A stretch of DNA of 64,000 bases from Candidatus Saccharimonadota bacterium (lineage in GTDB: Bacteria > Patescibacteriota > Saccharimonadia > Saccharimonadales > Saccharimonadaceae): assembly GCA_017515105.1 (NCBI GenBank), contig JAFWHO010000002.1:1-64000 (forward strand). Reading direction: 5' to 3'. The position numbers and the translations under genes were made by a program. How positions within the stretch are numbered: the stretch's first letter is position 1; every line of letters begins with the position of its first letter. Positions 1-28,715 of the stretch are shown here, in pieces. The notes below the pieces were generated by a model. That model had not been told where the DNA came from. It did not search any database and was given only the letters and a program-made list of their open reading frames with translations.

Positions 1-3000
1 CTATTACTGCTTCTCCTAACACTGGTTCTCACTTCACTTCCTGGACTCAGTCTGGTACTGCTGGTACCTTCGGCTCTGCCTCTTCCGCCTCCACCACCTT
101 CACTATGGGTAAGGGTAATAGCACAGTTACAGCGGGTGGTGAATACGAAACGTACAATATTACCCTAAATCGTAACTGTTCCACCACCGCCACCGGTTCA
201 ACCTCCACAGCTGTCAAATACAATGACACGACCTTGGGCGCTATCACTGTACCAACTTGTTCTAATGCTACTGGCACAAAGACCGTCAGCGGATTCACGA
301 CGACCACTTCATCTACTAACGCCACCATAACTTTCCAAACGCAACCTACTGGAAGCTCCTGCAACTCTTCCTCGAGTCCAAAAACCTGCAGCTCCACAAA
401 CTCCACATCATATACATTCAACGGGTGGCGCGCCGGTTCCGGTTCTGGTACCTTAGTAGCGAGCACCGCTGCCACTCCAGTTTTGCAGGCTAATATCTCC
501 GGTTATACTGGCACAGGAGGTAAATGGACAAGGACTAGCGCAACTACCCTTTACGCTGGTTGGACACCAAGTACCGGGTCATATTCATCAATAACTCTAC
601 CGACTATCACTAAGACAAATTACGTTTGTGGTTGGAGCACTTCATCGACCGCTAAGACTATTGATTACGAATCGGGTGCATCACTTATCCCATCATCAAA
701 CACCACACTTTACGGTATCTGTAATGCGATAATGCAAAAAGTTACTATGCCAGAGCTTGACACCTTAATGCCAAATAACCTTGATAGCGCAAAGCTAATC
801 GACTCAAGAGATGGAAAACTTTACTCGGTAACAAAAATTGATGATATTTATTGGATGACACAAAATCTATCCCTAGGAAAAAGTACAACTATGTCGCTAA
901 CAAGTGGTGACACAAACCTTAATGATTCGCTAACATCGCACACCCTCCCGGCGTCCTCGACCTCAGGGTTCTCATCAGATACTAGCGAAAGCGTATATAA
1001 TGCGGGGCAAGTTCCATGCTCAAGCAGTCAACCATGCGGGGGGTACTATTCATACCCCGCTGCAACTGCAGGGACAAACCCGTCATCCGGGGACGCGACA
1101 AGCGACATCTGCCCTAAAGGATGGAAACTACCGTCATATCTATTAGCAAGCAATCTTCGAACAGTAATTAGGGGACGAGGAGAATCCCTCACAGACGAAA
1201 CCTTCGCGGGCGAATTGTCTGGGTATCGTAGCAGTAGCTCATTCGTCGAAGGAGGAGTAAGCGGTAATCTATGGTTATCGAGCACAAATGGTAGTAATTA
1301 TGCCTATGGTCTTATTTTCGAAGAAGATATTATCGGTGACCTAGATTACGCTTACAGAAAAATGGGATTCTCTATTCGCTGCGTAAAAAACGTATTTGAC
1401 CACTCCATCACTTATGACGCGAACGCAGGAAGCGACACGGTTACGAATATGCCAGACCCGAATCCGACAAGATATATAAACGGATCACATACAGTAACTA
1501 TCTCAAATAAAGTACCAGTAAGAACCGGTTACACCTTCAAGGGCTGGTGCTCAGCAAGTACATCCGATGGTACCTGCAGTGGAACAACTTACAACCCAAA
1601 TGGTGGTGGGACAAACTTGAGCTATACATTCGCAGATTCCGATTCCGTATATAAAACACTGTATGCAATGTGGAATAAAAATACTTATAGCTTAACTATA
1701 AACTTTGCGGGGACAGGTATAAATTCCGTCAGAATATGTAAAGGTGGCAACCTGGGAGCATGTAACGCGGCTCCAGCGCAATATGCAATAGGTGAGATAA
1801 CGTCTAGCGGCGGTTCGGTCGGAGGGTTAGTTTATGGATCTAGCATTGGTCTACTTGCCTACACAGACACTGGCTATTCAGCTACTTATACATTAACAGC
1901 TGGATCAGGTTCTTTGATAGGTCAAAACATATTCGGCGTTGGTGCCGGCAATGGGACTTTAACGGCAACTGGAAAGGCAAACGCAATGCAAACATGGACA
2001 CCAAATGACTGTTCAGCGATGTCTACTGGTGATATAACACAATTGAATGACCTAAGAGATAGTGAACAATACTATGTAGGAAAACTAGCTGATGGCAACT
2101 GTTGGATGCTCGACAATCTTCGACTAGATCTAACCAATAGCACAACTCTCTCAAACACTACAGCTGATAACACCAATGCCACATCAACGACTCTCAACTA
2201 TTTAAAGAATGGTGGCGGAACGACTTCGGATAAATATCCGACTGCTAAAGTTAATAATGTATCATGGACTTCGAGTTCTCAAAATTCCTATAGTGTGCCA
2301 ATGGTTTCGGCCACCAATAAAAACAATACTACAACAAGTTATGGCTCTGGCTCTGGTAAAATAGGAGTAAATTATAATTACTGTGCAGCCTCTGCTGGGT
2401 CGTATTGTTATGGCAATGGTACTTCTGCCGGCACCTCTTCTGGAAATGCCACTGAGGATATTTGCCCTAAAGGATGGCGTTTGCCGACTGGTGATGCATC
2501 AGGCGAAACAAAAGCACTCTATCTAGCATACTCTTCTAATGCTACAAACTACCGCAATGCATTCTCCCTAGTCCTCTCTGGATATTTCCTTTCTGGCTCG
2601 GCTTCAGATGTGGGTACTGCAGGCAACTGGTTCTCGTCTACAAGATATAGCAATACCACAATGGGCTATTTAAAATATAGCACCTCCGGAGGCGTAGTAG
2701 TAGATGAACATGGTGGCGCACGCACTGCTGGCGCATCGGTACGATGTATATTCGATAATCAAGGCTATCTCCAAGATCAAACTTCATCGACTATGGACGA
2801 TCACATGACCTCTACAAATAAAATTATTTCAATCCGCGATTCTCGTGATAATGAACCATACCTCATCGGAAAACTTGCCGACAATAAATATTGGTTCCTA
2901 GATAACTTAAAACTTGACGTTACAAATAGCACGGTCCTTTCTAATACTCTAAGCAGCAATACGAATGCCACAACCACGTCACTTACCAGGTTTAAGAGCG

Positions 3001-23409: not shown

Positions 23410-26400
23410 TTAGAACTCCTCTCCGAGATCAACAGTTCCATCCGACTCGTCAATCTCTGTTATTTCGACACCTTCTTCCGCCATCATGGCTTCTGCCTCT
23501 TCCTCATCAAGATCGAGGATCTGCGGCTCGGTATCTTTTTTATGTTGATCATAGATGGATTGATCATCTTTTGATTTTTCAATTTCCTTTGATGTGCGCT
23601 CAATCACATCACCAGCGTCAGCAGCCTCACCGTGATCCAAGAGATCTACCTTAAGGCCGAGACCCTGCAACTCTTTCACCAACACGTTGAAGCCTTCAGG
23701 AAGCTTCGGACCTTCAATTGGTTCGTGTTTGATGATTGCCTCATAAGCTTTCGCACGTCCATAAACATCATCTGACTTGATAGTAAGCATTTCCTGCAAA
23801 GTAGTAGCTGCACCGTAAGCCTCAAGTGCCCAGACCTCCATTTCCCCGAAGCGCTGACCACCGTTCTGCGCCTTACCACCGAGCGGCTGCTGGGTAACCA
23901 TTGTATAAGGACCAGTTGAACGAGCGTGAATCTTATCTTCAACCATGTGGTGAAGCTTTAGCATATGCATCACACCAACAGAGGTTCTTTCGTTAAACGG
24001 CTCACCAGTCAAACCGTCGAAGAGTTGAACTCTACCGTCGCGGGCATAGCCAGCTTTTTCGAGCTCATCAGAGATTACCTCGTCAGGTACACCATTAAAT
24101 GACGGCGTAGCAACCTTATAGCCAAGTGCCCTAGCTGCCATACCAAGGTGAGTTTCAAATAGCTGACCGAGGTTCATGCGGCTTGGCACACCCATTGGGC
24201 TAAGCACTACATCGATTGGCGTACCATCGGCCATAAATGGCATGTCTTCCTTAGGAAGAATCCTGGAAACCACACCCTTGTTACCGTGGCGACCAGCAAG
24301 CTTATCACCTACGCCGATCTTACGCATTTCAGCTACGAAGATCTTGATTTGCATAATCACACCAGCTTTGAGTTCGTGACCCTGCTCTCTGGTGTAAACG
24401 CGTACATCGACAACTTTACCAGTCGAAGAACCATTCATTCTGACAGAAGTATCGCGTACATCTTTGGCTTTTTCACCGAAGATAGCACGGAGAAGTCTTT
24501 CCTCAGAGCTTAGCTCTTGCTCACCCTTAGGTGTAATTTTACCTACGAGAATGTCGCCATTTTTGACCTCGGAACCGATAGCCACAATACCGTCTTCACC
24601 AAGATGCCTCAAAGAATGCTCTGAAACATTTGGAATATCACGAGTTACTTGCTCTGGACCAAGTTTGGTCTCACGAACTTCGACATCGAAATCTTTAATG
24701 TTGATCGAAGTTAAAGTATCATCCTCGACCAAACGGTTCGAAATAACGATCGCGTCGTCCATGTTATAACCACGCCATGGCATAAATGCTACGAGAAGGT
24801 CACGTCCAAGTGCCAACTCGCCGTTATTGATAGATGCACCTTCGATCAAAGTGTCACCCTTCTTGACCTTCTGGCCACGACGAACAGCACATCTTTGGTT
24901 GTAACACCTATCATCATTGGTCTTTTCAAAGTGTTGTAGTTTGTATTCTACATCTCCGCCCTTATCGTAAGTTACGATTACAGACTCGGCATCAGCTTTC
25001 TTAACAACGCCAGCCCCAGTAGCTACTACGATCTGTGAAGTGTTCAAAGCGACTTCACGCTCGATACCAGTACCTACGATAGGATTATCCTGGCGAAGTA
25101 GAGGCACAGCCTGTTTCTGCATTGCGCAGGCCATCAAAGAACGGTCAACACGGTTTTTCTCTACAAATGGAATAAGTGATGCTGACACACCAAGAATCTC
25201 TTTGTGAGCCGCGTCAATATGAGTTACTCTTTTTGCTTCAACCTGTGCAGGAGTACCATGCACACGTGCGGACACCCAGTCTTCGACAAATTTACCATTT
25301 TTGTCTAGCTTAACCGAAGCGTCAGCGATAATCATGTCGTTCTCAGTATCGGCATCCATGTAAACTACTTCATCGGTAACCTTACCGTTCTTTACGACGA
25401 CATAAGGAGCCTCGATGAAGCCATATTCGTTAATCTTGGCGTAAGTTGCAAAGTTAAGCACGAGACCTACGTTACCACCTTCTGGTGTCTCAACCGTACA
25501 AATACGGCCATAGTGGGTCGGGTGAGCATCACGTACGTCAAAGCCAGCGCGTTCCCTAGTCAAACCACCAGGACCCATCGAGCTTAGACGGCGCTTGTGT
25601 GCAAGTTCTGAGAATGGGTTAACCTCATCCATAAGCTGTGAAAGCTGAGAAGTTGAGAAGAATTCCTTAACAGCAGCCACGACAGGACGTGAATTTAGAA
25701 GCTGTGAAGGAGTGACTTCCTCAAGGTTAGCCATTGACATTCTGTCTAGAATATTACGTTGTAAGCGAAGCATACCAAGGCGGAATTGCCTTTGTACGAG
25801 CTCGCCGACGAGCTTCACACGACGATTAGACAACGAGTCGATATCATCCGGCGCTTCTTGTGTGTTGTTCAATCTGATGATTTCGGAAACAATTGCCACG
25901 ACGTCTTTCATTTGCAAAGTTCTGAACTCAGGTTCATTTGGCGTATCAAACCCAAGACGGCGATTAATCTTAAATCTACCAACGTTTGAATAATCATAGC
26001 GTTTCTTGTCGAAGAAAGTACGCTCAATCATTGATTTAGCGTTCTCAACGGTTGCAAGATCGCCTGGACGAAGCTTGCGATAAACTTCAAGCAAAGCTTC
26101 ACCTTGGTTCGAAGTCGTATCTTTTTCGAAAGTAACTTCGATATATTTCTTCTCACCAGTGTCAACCTTAGAAAACGCGTTCTCAATCTCGCTCTTCTTC
26201 ATACCAAGTGCACGAAGGAAAGTTGTGACCGGGATTTTACGACGACGATCAATCTTTACATAGATTGCACCGTTTACAGCGGTCTCGAACTCGAGCCAAG
26301 CACCACGGCCTGGAATTACCTTAGCACCATAATAGCGCTTCAAACCAACCGTCTCAGCGTTAAAGAACACCCCAGCCGAGCGAATCAATTGGGAAACGAT

Positions 26401-26790
26401 CACCCTCTCGGTACCGTTAATAATAAATGTCGCCCTTTCGGTCATCCAAGGATAGTCACCAAAGTAAATATCCTGTTCTTTCTTTTCGCCGGTGGTCTTG
26501 TTCTCTAGTTCCACCAAAACGTGGAGTGGCGCTTCGTAAGTTGCAAGATTGTACTTTGCATCACGCTCCGACTCCTTTGGTTCTTTAAAATAATAATCTT
26601 TGAAACGAAGAGAGAGTTTCTGACCGGTATAGTCGTCAATCGGATTCAACTCCTCGAAGACTTCCCGAAGACCATTTTGCACAAAATCAGCCCACGAATC
26701 CTTCTGATGCGCGGTTAAATCTGGTATTGGCAAAGCCTGATCACCTTCGGTAAAGAAAACTCTTTCTTTCTGACTAGGTTTTGTAACCAT
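23410..26790 (-). CDS. rpoB: RNA polymerase beta subunit
   Basis: 1126 aa. Forms the active-site cleft with beta'. Signatures are QLSQLMDEVNPFSELAHKRR (the rifampicin-binding region, with the key Gln, Asp, His, Arg and Ser residues of sensitive enzymes present), GPGGLTRERAGFDVRD, YGRICTVETPEGGNVGL, MPWRGYNMDDAIVIS, GRHGNKGVVSRI and KLHHMVEDKIHARSTGPY. The C-terminus has an acidic extension (DEEEAEAMMAEEG). An AGAGGTAG site lies upstream. It heads the rpoB-rpoC unit and has a long, complex leader; no rplJ-rplL precede it. Confidence 0.97.
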   Translation of the reverse strand: MVTKPSQKERVFFTEGDQALPIPDLTAHQKDSWADFVQNGLREVFEELNPIDDYTGQKLSLRFKDYYFKEPKESERDAKYNLATYEAPLHVLVELENKTTGEKKEQDIYFGDYPWMTERATFIINGTERVIVSQLIRSAGVFFNAETVGLKRYYGAKVIPGRGAWLEFETAVNGAIYVKIDRRRKIPVTTFLRALGMKKSEIENAFSKVDTGEKKYIEVTFEKDTTSNQGEALLEVYRKLRPGDLATVENAKSMIERTFFDKKRYDYSNVGRFKINRRLGFDTPNEPEFRTLQMKDVVAIVSEIIRLNNTQEAPDDIDSLSNRRVKLVGELVQRQFRLGMLRLQRNILDRMSMANLEEVTPSQLLNSRPVVAAVKEFFSTSQLSQLMDEVNPFSELAHKRRLSSMGPGGLTRERAGFDVRDAHPTHYGRICTVETPEGGNVGLVLNFATYAKINEYGFIEAPYVVVKNGKVTDEVVYMDADTENDMIIADASVKLDKNGKFVEDWVSARVHGTPAQVEAKRVTHIDAAHKEILGVSASLIPFVEKNRVDRSLMACAMQKQAVPLLRQDNPIVGTGIEREVALNTSQIVVATGAGVVKKADAESVIVTYDKGGDVEYKLQHFEKTNDDRCYNQRCAVRRGQKVKKGDTLIEGASINNGELALGRDLLVAFMPWRGYNMDDAIVISNRLVEDDTLTSINIKDFDVEVRETKLGPEQVTRDIPNVSEHSLRHLGEDGIVAIGSEVKNGDILVGKITPKGEQELSSEERLLRAIFGEKAKDVRDTSVRMNGSSTGKVVDVRVYTREQGHELKAGVIMQIKIFVAEMRKIGVGDKLAGRHGNKGVVSRILPKEDMPFMADGTPIDVVLSPMGVPSRMNLGQLFETHLGMAARALGYKVATPSFNGVPDEVISDELEKAGYARDGRVQLFDGLTGEPFNERTSVGVMHMLKLHHMVEDKIHARSTGPYTMVTQQPLGGKAQNGGQRFGEMEVWALEAYGAATTLQEMLTIKSDDVYGRAKAYEAIIKHEPIEGPKLPEGFNVLVKELQGLGLKVDLLDHGEAADAGDVIERTSKEIEKSKDDQSIYDQHKKDTEPQILDLDEEEAEAMMAEEGVEITEIDESDGTVDLGEEF

Positions 26791-26810
26791 TCTACCTCTT
26801 TTTATTAGTG

Positions 26811-26924
26811 TTAATAGTATTTTTCAGCAACCAATCGTACAGGAAAAACAACTCCTGTCACATTAATTACTTCAGCGCCGAAGACTACTGCCCAGTTCCC
26901 ACCTTGAAAGTCGCCACCTTCCAT
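26811..26924 (-). CDS. 37-codon ORF in the rpoB leader
   Basis: An ORF of 37 codons starting MEGGDFQGGNWAVVFGAEVI and ending RLVAEKYY, 20 nt upstream of the rpoB ATG. The composition looks protein-like (a hydrophobic beta-type middle and a charged end). It has no Shine-Dalgarno, so start choice and translation are uncertain. It starts about 33 nt downstream of a promoter-like sequence at 26962-26990. It could be a leader peptide for rpoB or a conserved small protein; I do not recognise it. Confidence 0.45.
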   Translation of the reverse strand: MEGGDFQGGNWAVVFGAEVINVTGVVFPVRLVAEKYY

Positions 26925-26961
26925 AAGATACAAAAACAGGACACACTACTTCTTGTACTTA

Positions 26962-26990
26962 ATATTATCACACCCGAGGCTCAGAATCAA
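26962..26990 (-). promoter_or_regulatory. Proximal promoter of rpoBC (P2)
   Basis: On the minus strand TTGATT (26985-26990) is followed by 17 nt and TAATAT, or alternatively an extended TGTGATAAT at 15-nt spacing. It lies inside the 454-bp gene-free region and predicts an mRNA covering the 37-codon ORF and rpoB. Confidence 0.5.
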
Positions 26991-27014
26991 TACTATTTTT
27001 GCAAATTTTTATCT

Positions 27015-27109
27015 AAAAACCCAAAATCCTCCTTCAACGCAGGAGGATTTCAAGCCATATATAAGCTCTCAACTTTTTCTTTCAAGCCGACTCGCAGTTA
27101 GTTAGCTTA
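27015..27109 (-). ncRNA. Structured leader or small RNA ending in an attenuator-like hairpin upstream of rpoB
   Basis: About 94 nt from the predicted start of promoter P1. ATAAGCT (27101-27107) pairs perfectly with AGCTTAT (27060-27066), and AACT/AGTT can extend inside. It is followed by AAATCCTCC/GGAGGATTT (27024-27032 with 27042-27050, 9-nt loop) and then TTTTGGGTTTTT. The layout of promoter, folded domain and terminator fits an attenuated rpoB leader or a discrete small RNA. It matches no class I know. Confidence 0.4.
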
Positions 27110-27115
27110 TGTTTA

Positions 27116-27143
27116 ATTATACACGCTAAGCGACGATTGTCAA
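27116..27143 (-). promoter_or_regulatory. Consensus promoter P1 upstream of rpoB
   Basis: TTGACA (27138-27143), 16 nt, TATAAT (27116-27121) on the minus strand. Both hexamers are perfect matches to the sigma70-type consensus, the best in the window. Confidence 0.75.
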
Positions 27144-27162
27144 GGACTTTTTGAATCAAAAA

Positions 27163-27244: not shown

Positions 27245-27604
27245 TCATTCATCAATCTTGAGGATTGAATTAATTTTCATGAGCTCATCGTATTTTTTAC
27301 AATATTCTCTTCTGTTATTCGCCAACTGCCGACTTATCATCACACCTTCTTCAACCAATTTGTCGAGACCACTTTCTAAACGCTGTTTGTCCATAACAAG
27401 ATCTTTGATCTCACGACTCTTATCCTCTGTTAAATCTAAGTTTTTGAGAAAATCCGAAGTTAAGCGAGAGCCCTCGTTCTCCAATTCAACCACTTCTTTT
27501 AAGAGTTTCTCTCTCTGTTCTTTAAGAGAATCGAGATCCTGCTTTATCACGGTTTCCTGCTCCAACACAATTGAACGATTCGTTGAGCTTTCCATATATC
27601 CCAT
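27245..27604 (-). CDS. Orphan coiled-coil protein, 119 aa
   Basis: I do not recognise this protein. Nearly the whole length is charged and heptad-like (LDSLKEQREKLLKEVVELEN, then DKQRLESGLDKLVEEG), predicting a long coiled coil with no signal peptide or membrane helix. AAGGAGGTG lies upstream; the ATG at 27604 is used, with 27595 possible. It is a lone gene with its own terminator. The opposite strand has an open frame too, but its Ser/Leu-rich product looks like an antisense shadow. Confidence 0.7.
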   Translation of the reverse strand: MGYMESSTNRSIVLEQETVIKQDLDSLKEQREKLLKEVVELENEGSRLTSDFLKNLDLTEDKSREIKDLVMDKQRLESGLDKLVEEGVMISRQLANNRREYCKKYDELMKINSILKIDE

Positions 27605-27758: not shown

Positions 27759-28211
27759 TTAGATATCTAGATCATCAAGATCAGCAAGCTCAGCTCTTGT
27801 CTTCTCAGCAAGTTCAGAAGTGCCCTCTTCTTCGTCGTCATCATCTTCATCCTCTTCCTCAGCTTCCTCAACCTCTTCGACCTCTTCATCCTCTACGTCT
27901 TCTTTCTTTTCTTCTTTCTTGCTCTTCTTGGTCTCAGTCTTCTTCGTCTCGCCCTCTTCGTCTTCGTCAGTATTTACGATCTTCAGATTAAATCTTGCAT
28001 CTTGCTTGGTACCAAGTGCGCGGAGTAAAACACGAATCGCCTGCGCTGTAACGCCTCGTTTACCGATAACGCGGCCGACGTCAGATGGATCTACGGTCAA
28101 AGTAAGAAGCACACCCTTTTCATCGATTACTCTTTCCACTGCTACCTTTTCAGGATTGTTGACTAATGTTTTTACGATATATTCTACGAATTGTTGGTCG
28201 ATAGTAGCCAT
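27759..28211 (-). CDS. khpA: KH-domain RNA-binding protein KhpA with acidic tail
   Basis: 150 aa. Residues 1-80 are a KhpA-type KH domain with the RNA-binding GRVIGKRGVTAQAIR (GxxG loop) and RVLLRALG. The remaining 70 residues are an unusually long Glu/Asp/Lys low-complexity tail (DEDDDDEEEGT) not found in the typical roughly 80-residue KhpA. KhpA with KhpB binds many RNAs in Gram-positives and affects cell division. It follows rpsP, a common neighbour, but a terminator lies between them. Confidence 0.9.
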   Translation of the reverse strand: MATIDQQFVEYIVKTLVNNPEKVAVERVIDEKGVLLTLTVDPSDVGRVIGKRGVTAQAIRVLLRALGTKQDARFNLKIVNTDEDEEGETKKTETKKSKKEEKKEDVEDEEVEEVEEAEEEDEDDDDEEEGTSELAEKTRAELADLDDLDI

Positions 28212-28295: not shown

Positions 28296-28715
28296 TTAAG
28301 CTTCCGCAGGAGTTTCCTCGGCTGGAGCTTCAGCAGCTTCAGCAGGTGCTTCAGCTGGTGCCTCAGCAGGAGCTTCAGGAGCTTCGGCTGGCGCCTCTTC
28401 CTTTGGCTGATTCTTACGAAGCTTGTCAGCGTGCTTAGCCGTTGCCTTCTTAGGAGCCGGCTCTTTGTACCATTTAGGTAACTTAATGCCGTTTTTCTTC
28501 AAGATAAAAGCAACTCTCGAAGATGGCTGTGCACCATTTGACAAATATTTGTTTACTGCATCCTTATCTAGGGTCAAAGCCTTAGTTGCGGGATTGTAGT
28601 TGCCGACCTCAGCTACCACGCGTCCCGAAAGCGGATGACGCTGTGATTCTTGGACGACTATCCGGTACGTTGGATAATGTGACCGGCCATTACGTTGCAT
28701 GCGAATCGCTAGCAT
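28296..28715 (-). CDS. rpsP: Ribosomal protein S16 with Ala/Pro/Glu tail
   Basis: 139 aa. The N-terminal 80 residues are standard S16 (MLAIRMQRNGRSHYPTYRIV, GNYNPATKAL, SNGAQPSSRVAFILKKNG). The C-terminus adds an AEAPAEAPAEAPAEA-type repeat of about 35 residues, acidic in contrast to the Lys-rich tails of S5 and L17. CTCCTT complement gives an AAGGAG site before the ATG. Its terminator separates it from khpA. Confidence 0.95.
   Translation of the reverse strand: MLAIRMQRNGRSHYPTYRIVVQESQRHPLSGRVVAEVGNYNPATKALTLDKDAVNKYLSNGAQPSSRVAFILKKNGIKLPKWYKEPAPKKATAKHADKLRKNQPKEEAPAEAPEAPAEAPAEAPAEAAEAPAEETPAEA

Follow-up and report, generated by a model that had tools for sequence, protein, structure and literature searches.

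In this Saccharibacteria genome, the interval directly upstream of rpoB (positions 26791-27160, minus strand, of the window, i.e., the whole 64,000-nucleotide stretch of contig JAFWHO010000002.1 that was analysed) appears, when compared with its relatives, to comprise two separate conserved RNAs and not one leader. Element 1 (M1; 27015-27110, minus strand) is a candidate stand-alone small RNA of about 95 nt including its terminator, and element 2 (M2; 26807-26954, minus strand) is a predicted structured 5' UTR of rpoB of about 100-150 nt, reaching from approximately its +1 to its closing stem. The anatomy of both RNAs is well supported by the comparison, and it is their function that we infer. 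A previous sequence-only reading had described the interval as a single complex rpoB leader; a conserved RNA is indeed present in each half, but the first unit has no fixed link to rpoB.

Relatives were collected by DNA similarity (30 loci, same family) and by the RpoB N-terminus (80 named loci, most of them titled Saccharibacteria), and the wider sampling consisted of covariance-model searches over genome samples of the class and of the phylum. In the 30 same-family loci the DNA similarity breaks into separate blocks. In the M1 block, AACUGCGAG and GUUGAGAGCUUAU precede a terminator, whereas the M2 block contains AAGAAGUAGUGUG, UGGCGA, AAUCUUCGGCGCU, and ACACUAA and extends to the Shine-Dalgarno sequence of rpoB. 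The fetched loci place M1 and M2 independently of each other relative to rpoB. When single sequences were folded, the two halves gained little over shuffled sequences (z -1.8 and -1.9), and therefore the claim of structure rests on the comparison with relatives.

The rpoB gene (23410-26790, minus strand) encodes a protein of 1126 aa that is up to 94% identical to Saccharibacteria-annotated relatives over the N-terminal 196 aa. The khpA gene (27759-28211, minus strand), positioned after rpsP, is the conserved upstream neighbour of M1 and encodes a KH domain protein (Pfam KH_KhpA-B, E 2e-20) whose long acidic C-terminal tail ends in DLDDLDI, the same ending being found in relatives. The rpsP product (S16; 28296-28715, minus strand) has a tail of alanine/proline/glutamate repeats, APAEAPAEAPAE. 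Between khpA and M1 there is, in the window's genome only, an ORF for a predicted coiled-coil protein of 119 aa (27245-27604, minus strand), which lacks homologues among the other loci fetched and matches no Pfam family above the cut-off.

The promoter of M1 (27116-27143, minus strand) is a TTGACA-16-TATAAT sequence (TTGACA at 27143-27138, TATAAT at 27121-27116) that agrees with the consensus in 12 of 12 positions, just as the sequence-only reading had it, and the predicted +1 lies at about 27109. The TATAAT is kept at the same position in most genus-level relatives, a near-consensus separate promoter precedes M1 in the window's genus, and separate M1 promoters are found in several loci. Comparison with relatives delimits the conserved segments AACUGCGAG (27091-27099) and AAGUUGAGAG (27066-27075), both on the minus strand, and at genus level M1 contains regions of up to 87% identity. 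The intrinsic terminator (27015-27050, minus strand) is formed by the hairpin AAATCCTCC/GGAGGATTT at 27050-27024 and the U-rich TTTTGGGTTTTT. Nearly all relatives have a hairpin and a U run 3' of M1, but the sequence of the hairpin differs. Judged from sequence and conservation, M1 thus carries a promoter and a terminator of its own, as a stand-alone small RNA should, and we consider it a candidate small-RNA gene linked to khpA.

The fold of M1 is not settled, and the RNA may be bistable. The 7-bp outer stem (ATAAGCT at 27110-27104 with AGCTTAT at 27067-27061), which had been described as a closing stem, is conserved in sequence, even invariant, but its covariation signal is absent, since it reached z 0.2 in a swap test on sequences thinned to under 90% alike and otherwise uncorrected for shared ancestry. 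The same test gave z 4.9 for the outer helix of other genera, z 3.6 for the near hairpin, and z 3.8 for the inner stem, so that an alternative hairpin of AAGCU with the near AGCUU, together with the inner stem, outperforms the 7-bp outer stem. Two other ideas on M1 were discarded by eye: a translated short ORF starting at the AUG after GAGAGCUUAU, because this AUG is absent in several relatives and the frames differ, and a pairing of the CCUCC terminator arm with Shine-Dalgarno sites, because the sequence of the arm is not conserved. The terminator loop often repeats GUUGA or GUUGAGAG (L060, L052, L055, L041, and L006), which also occurs in the M1 core and could be a repeated binding site.

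M1 is present in a single copy in the genome (57.6 bits, the next match having 26.1). At E<=0.01 it has matches in 141 of the 295 genomes of the class, and many of the weaker matches among these are unverified. Twenty moderate matches were fetched and re-scored, and almost every parsable locus had khpA upstream of M1 and in the same orientation. The position relative to rpoB is far less constant: M1 lies on the strand opposite to rpoB in a dozen loci, some of which may represent one species twice (L008, L009, L010, L015, L032, L034, L035, L045, L051, L065, L066, and L141), and more than 2 kb upstream of rpoB in others (e.g., L071-L073 and L092). Its orientation is therefore independent of its neighbours: about a dozen loci have it on the strand opposite to rpoB, to khpA, or to both. 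Because it is found on the opposite strand or far away in these loci, M1 is not an rpoB attenuator. The premature termination that had been attributed to the first hairpin finds no support, since this hairpin terminates a small-RNA gene in its own right, and in some loci that gene is directed away from rpoB.

M1 is usually found just downstream of khpA and in many genera starts within about 20-60 nt of the khpA stop codon, which would also fit the view that it is merely the khpA 3' UTR with its terminator and that there is no small-RNA gene. We find this view rather unlikely, since some ten loci have M1 running in the direction opposite to khpA and since, in the window and in L031, khpA has a terminator-like hairpin of its own ahead of the M1 promoter. 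Moreover, a -10 hexamer is retained at the khpA stop where M1 adjoins it: in genera where no more than about 40 nt separate the stop from M1, TATAAT is read across the stop codon into the base that follows. The khpA stop is followed by T in 29 of 35 scanned loci, and the remaining six, with A, have M1 farther away. In many relatives, the khpA stop codon thereby doubles as part of the -10 hexamer.

The small RNA linked to khpA might be a ligand of KhpA itself. KhpA and KhpB are reported to interact with sRNAs in Gram-positive bacteria (PMC10117718), and the genome studied here likewise combines a small RNA with genes for KhpA and a KhpB-type R3H protein. What differs is that here the RNA gene adjoins khpA and is conserved as a family. 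The gene neighbourhood, the R3H protein, and the Gram-positive reports suggest that M1 could be bound by KhpA/KhpB, acting in trans or as a KhpA/KhpB sink, a proposal less certain than the one made below for M2.

M2 would be the 5' UTR of rpoB, with a conserved structure and a fixed place before this gene. The rpoB promoter, TTGATT-17-TAATAT (26962-26990, minus strand), ends 7 nt before a conserved AAGAAG. Of 75 leaders, 65 have a TATAAT-like hexamer in the 20 nt that precede AAGAAG, and in 45 the spacing is exactly 7 nt; given this fixed distance, M2 should start at about the first transcribed base. The element, all on the minus strand, is closed by stem P1 (5' AGUGU at 26943-26947, 3' ACACU at 26811-26807), recovered in the fitted alignments and formed, as read by eye, by different pairs in the distant lineages L094 and L097. 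Inside P1 are stem P2 (5' GUCC at 26939-26942, 3' GGGC at 26893-26890), with CG, UA, and GC pair types among leaders, and hairpin P3, GGAAG[GUGGCGA]CUUUC (26906-26922), with a conserved UGGC loop. The segment UAGUCUUCGGCGCUG (26873-26887) is conserved among relatives. A fourth helix, irregular in the window, carries the variable arm AGUAAUUAAU/AUUGGUUGCU (26826-26871), which is absent in many relatives and lies within the 37-codon ORF discussed below. The arms of this fourth hairpin vary greatly, up to more than 100 nt (L043, L060, L061, and L063), and look like a site where expansion is tolerated.

In addition, GAAG (26949-26952) could pair with CUUC (26883-26880) as a helix P0 that would cross P1 and create a pseudoknot. 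GAAG/CUUC is present in 88 leaders and the single double change, GAAU/AUUC, occurs in L103, so the pseudoknot is suggestive, with few changes behind it; a contact of the UGGC loop with GCY is possible, with very few changes behind it. The minimum-energy fold of the window's M2 contains P1, P2, P3, as well as the arm, with the rpoB Shine-Dalgarno sequence AGAGGU (26794-26799, minus strand) open and unpaired. In most close relatives the distance from the closing stem to the rpoB start codon is 12-16 nt. M2 is therefore a predicted structured RNA that lies in the rpoB 5' UTR and adjoins the rpoB Shine-Dalgarno sequence.

The covariation of the M2 helices was analysed with an alignment-free swap test, in which short sequence anchors were used to compare own with swapped strand partners and no structural alignment entered. 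Two helices covary very strongly: P2 reached z 14.5 and P3 z 12.5 in 49 leaders thinned to under 80% alike and otherwise uncorrected for shared ancestry, and the scores of mismatched strand pairs, used as controls, were not raised. Model-fitted alignments agree, with 0 of 500 shuffles for most measures and far lower values for slid helices.

M2 is also a single-copy element; one weak second match (L120) was rejected as a chance match within a coding region. Flanks were fetched for 19 further loci. In 18 of them M2 directly precedes rpoB in the same orientation, and the last is a short contig in which rpoB has no match. At E<=0.01 it was detected in 125 of the 295 class genomes, nearly all from the window's family and three spread over two more families of the order. 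These figures are minimum values, since manual reading finds related leaders in many distant Saccharibacteria that escape the models or receive poor scores from them. In the phylum samples the M2 models retrieved nothing beyond Saccharimonadia-type relatives, and their sensitivity already falls within the class.

The ATG-started 37-codon ORF (26811-26924, minus strand) that ends 20 nt before rpoB was judged to be spurious, being most simply M2 RNA read by chance. Among 85 leaders, ATG ORFs of 30 or more codons turn up in just three: the one in the window and two more (L093 and L095), which encode unrelated peptides. The shared peptide-like AVIFGAE is a conserved RNA segment read in frame, and the ORF has no Pfam match. 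The idea that translation of this leader ORF regulates rpoB is accordingly not sustained.

Taken together, these data make it reasonably probable that two independent transcripts arise between khpA and rpoB and that M2 is an autogenous translational leader. Beginning at about +1, M2 would form a closed multi-helix element (P1, P2, P3, and the fourth hairpin with its optional arm), to which a pseudoknot or a loop-loop contact would possibly be added, and would stop a few nucleotides short of the ribosome binding site of rpoB. A regulator linked to the product would stabilise the closed fold beside the Shine-Dalgarno sequence and block 30S loading. No intrinsic-terminator-like site was found in the window between the second promoter and rpoB, and an RNA that runs from about +1 to 12-16 nt from the start codon without a terminator fits a control of translation initiation; in the window's genus M2 would be a translational switch and not an attenuation switch. 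RNA polymerase or its beta/beta' subunits would be the first choice of regulator, because rpoBC of Escherichia coli is reported to be under autogenous translational control, separate from that of L10-L12 (PMC10931766), and another RNA-binding protein the second. The two cases would resemble each other in that RNA polymerase subunits are controlled apart from L10-L12, whereas in E. coli rpoB lies inside the rplJL-rpoBC operon and here it has its own promoter and a leader folded from about +1. The most likely use of M2 would be translational feedback on rpoB, where both the regulator and the sign of the regulation are what we infer. The earlier suggestion that RNA polymerase synthesis is tuned at the RNA level survives insofar as rpoB has a conserved structured leader of its own, but not by way of termination or of a leader ORF.

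Several other explanations were weighed. The view of one long rpoB leader, transcribed from the M1 promoter and containing an attenuating terminator, a second promoter, and a regulatory leader ORF, draws on the window itself, where the 7-bp stem, the 9-bp hairpin with its T-rich tract, the second promoter, and the 37-codon ORF are all present as sequence, in order and on one strand. We consider it highly improbable, since in about a dozen loci the whole M1 unit, promoter and terminator included, faces away from rpoB, and in others more than 1 kb separates the two, the ORF is not conserved, and rpoB has a promoter of its own at a fixed distance before M2. A descent from the ribosomal-protein leaders, with M2 as an L10-type leader still controlling rpoBC once the operon had split, has in its favour that rplJL and rpoBC form part of a single operon in E. 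coli (PMC10931766). The loss of this context from rpoB, as noted in the sequence-only reading, is borne out here. The genuine L10 leader of this genome, however, is on another contig (C3:79044-79194; 51.7 bits for a cut-off of 44), directly before rplJ (173 aa) and rplL (132 aa), both named from their sequences, and M2 does not match the L10 leader model RF00557, whose one match (15.5 bits, E 4.4) falls outside M2. Although both would be 5' UTR regulatory RNAs and the L10 leader was historically upstream of rpoBC, that leader stands separately before rplJ and M2 precedes rpoB and not rplJ-rplL, so that M2 was rejected as an L10 leader and this descent seems quite improbable to us. A metabolite riboswitch (e.g., nucleotide-sensing) that sets the level of RNA polymerase would account for the compact multi-helix fold, the conserved loops, and a pseudoknot that may form next to the ribosome binding site. 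Metabolite riboswitches usually precede several genes, but M2 is found solely before rpoB and once per genome, and we hold this alternative to be unlikely. In locus L189, an ORF for a predicted membrane protein (427-1008, plus strand) is located between rplA and the unit formed by the L10 leader and rplJL.

Neither M1 nor M2 matches an Rfam family, relaxed thresholds giving chance-level matches alone. The closest known kind is Lacto-rpoB (RF01709), which sits in the rpoB 5' UTR. It had no match above the cut-off in this genome and 19 relatives, with a positive Lactococcus control, and is not among the M2 matches at E<=10; M2 was therefore rejected as a Lacto-rpoB RNA. Lacto-rpoB is a conserved rpoB-associated RNA of Lactobacillales that is listed as a probable cis-regulator (PMC2864571). 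The two are alike as conserved rpoB-associated RNAs, but the Lacto-rpoB model has 58 positions and M2 is longer, with at least four helices and other conserved sequence. The open-licence literature searched yielded no other rpoB-associated RNA and very little on RNA-based regulation in Patescibacteria. Within these open-licence papers, both RNAs are candidates for previously unlisted ones.

The tiny parasitic Saccharibacteria thus seem to control the production of RNA polymerase through RNA. The full reading, in which a lineage-specific pseudoknotted leader, in place from the very first rpoB nucleotide to be transcribed, is recognised by RNA polymerase as a means to set the enzyme's own synthesis and is accompanied by a dedicated KhpA-associated sRNA, is one that we advance only tentatively and that would, if true, add two unlisted families of RNA regulators in a group with very reduced genomes. 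A covarying rpoB leader across the family and neighbouring families would imply a selected control at the RNA level after rpoBC left the rplJL operon. M2 offers a defined RNA of about 100-150 nt for binding tests, and M1, through its link to khpA, would open the way to KhpA function in these organisms. In two distant loci (L107 and L109) there is a terminator-like hairpin with a U run between M2 and rpoB, and some distant lineages may use control by termination.
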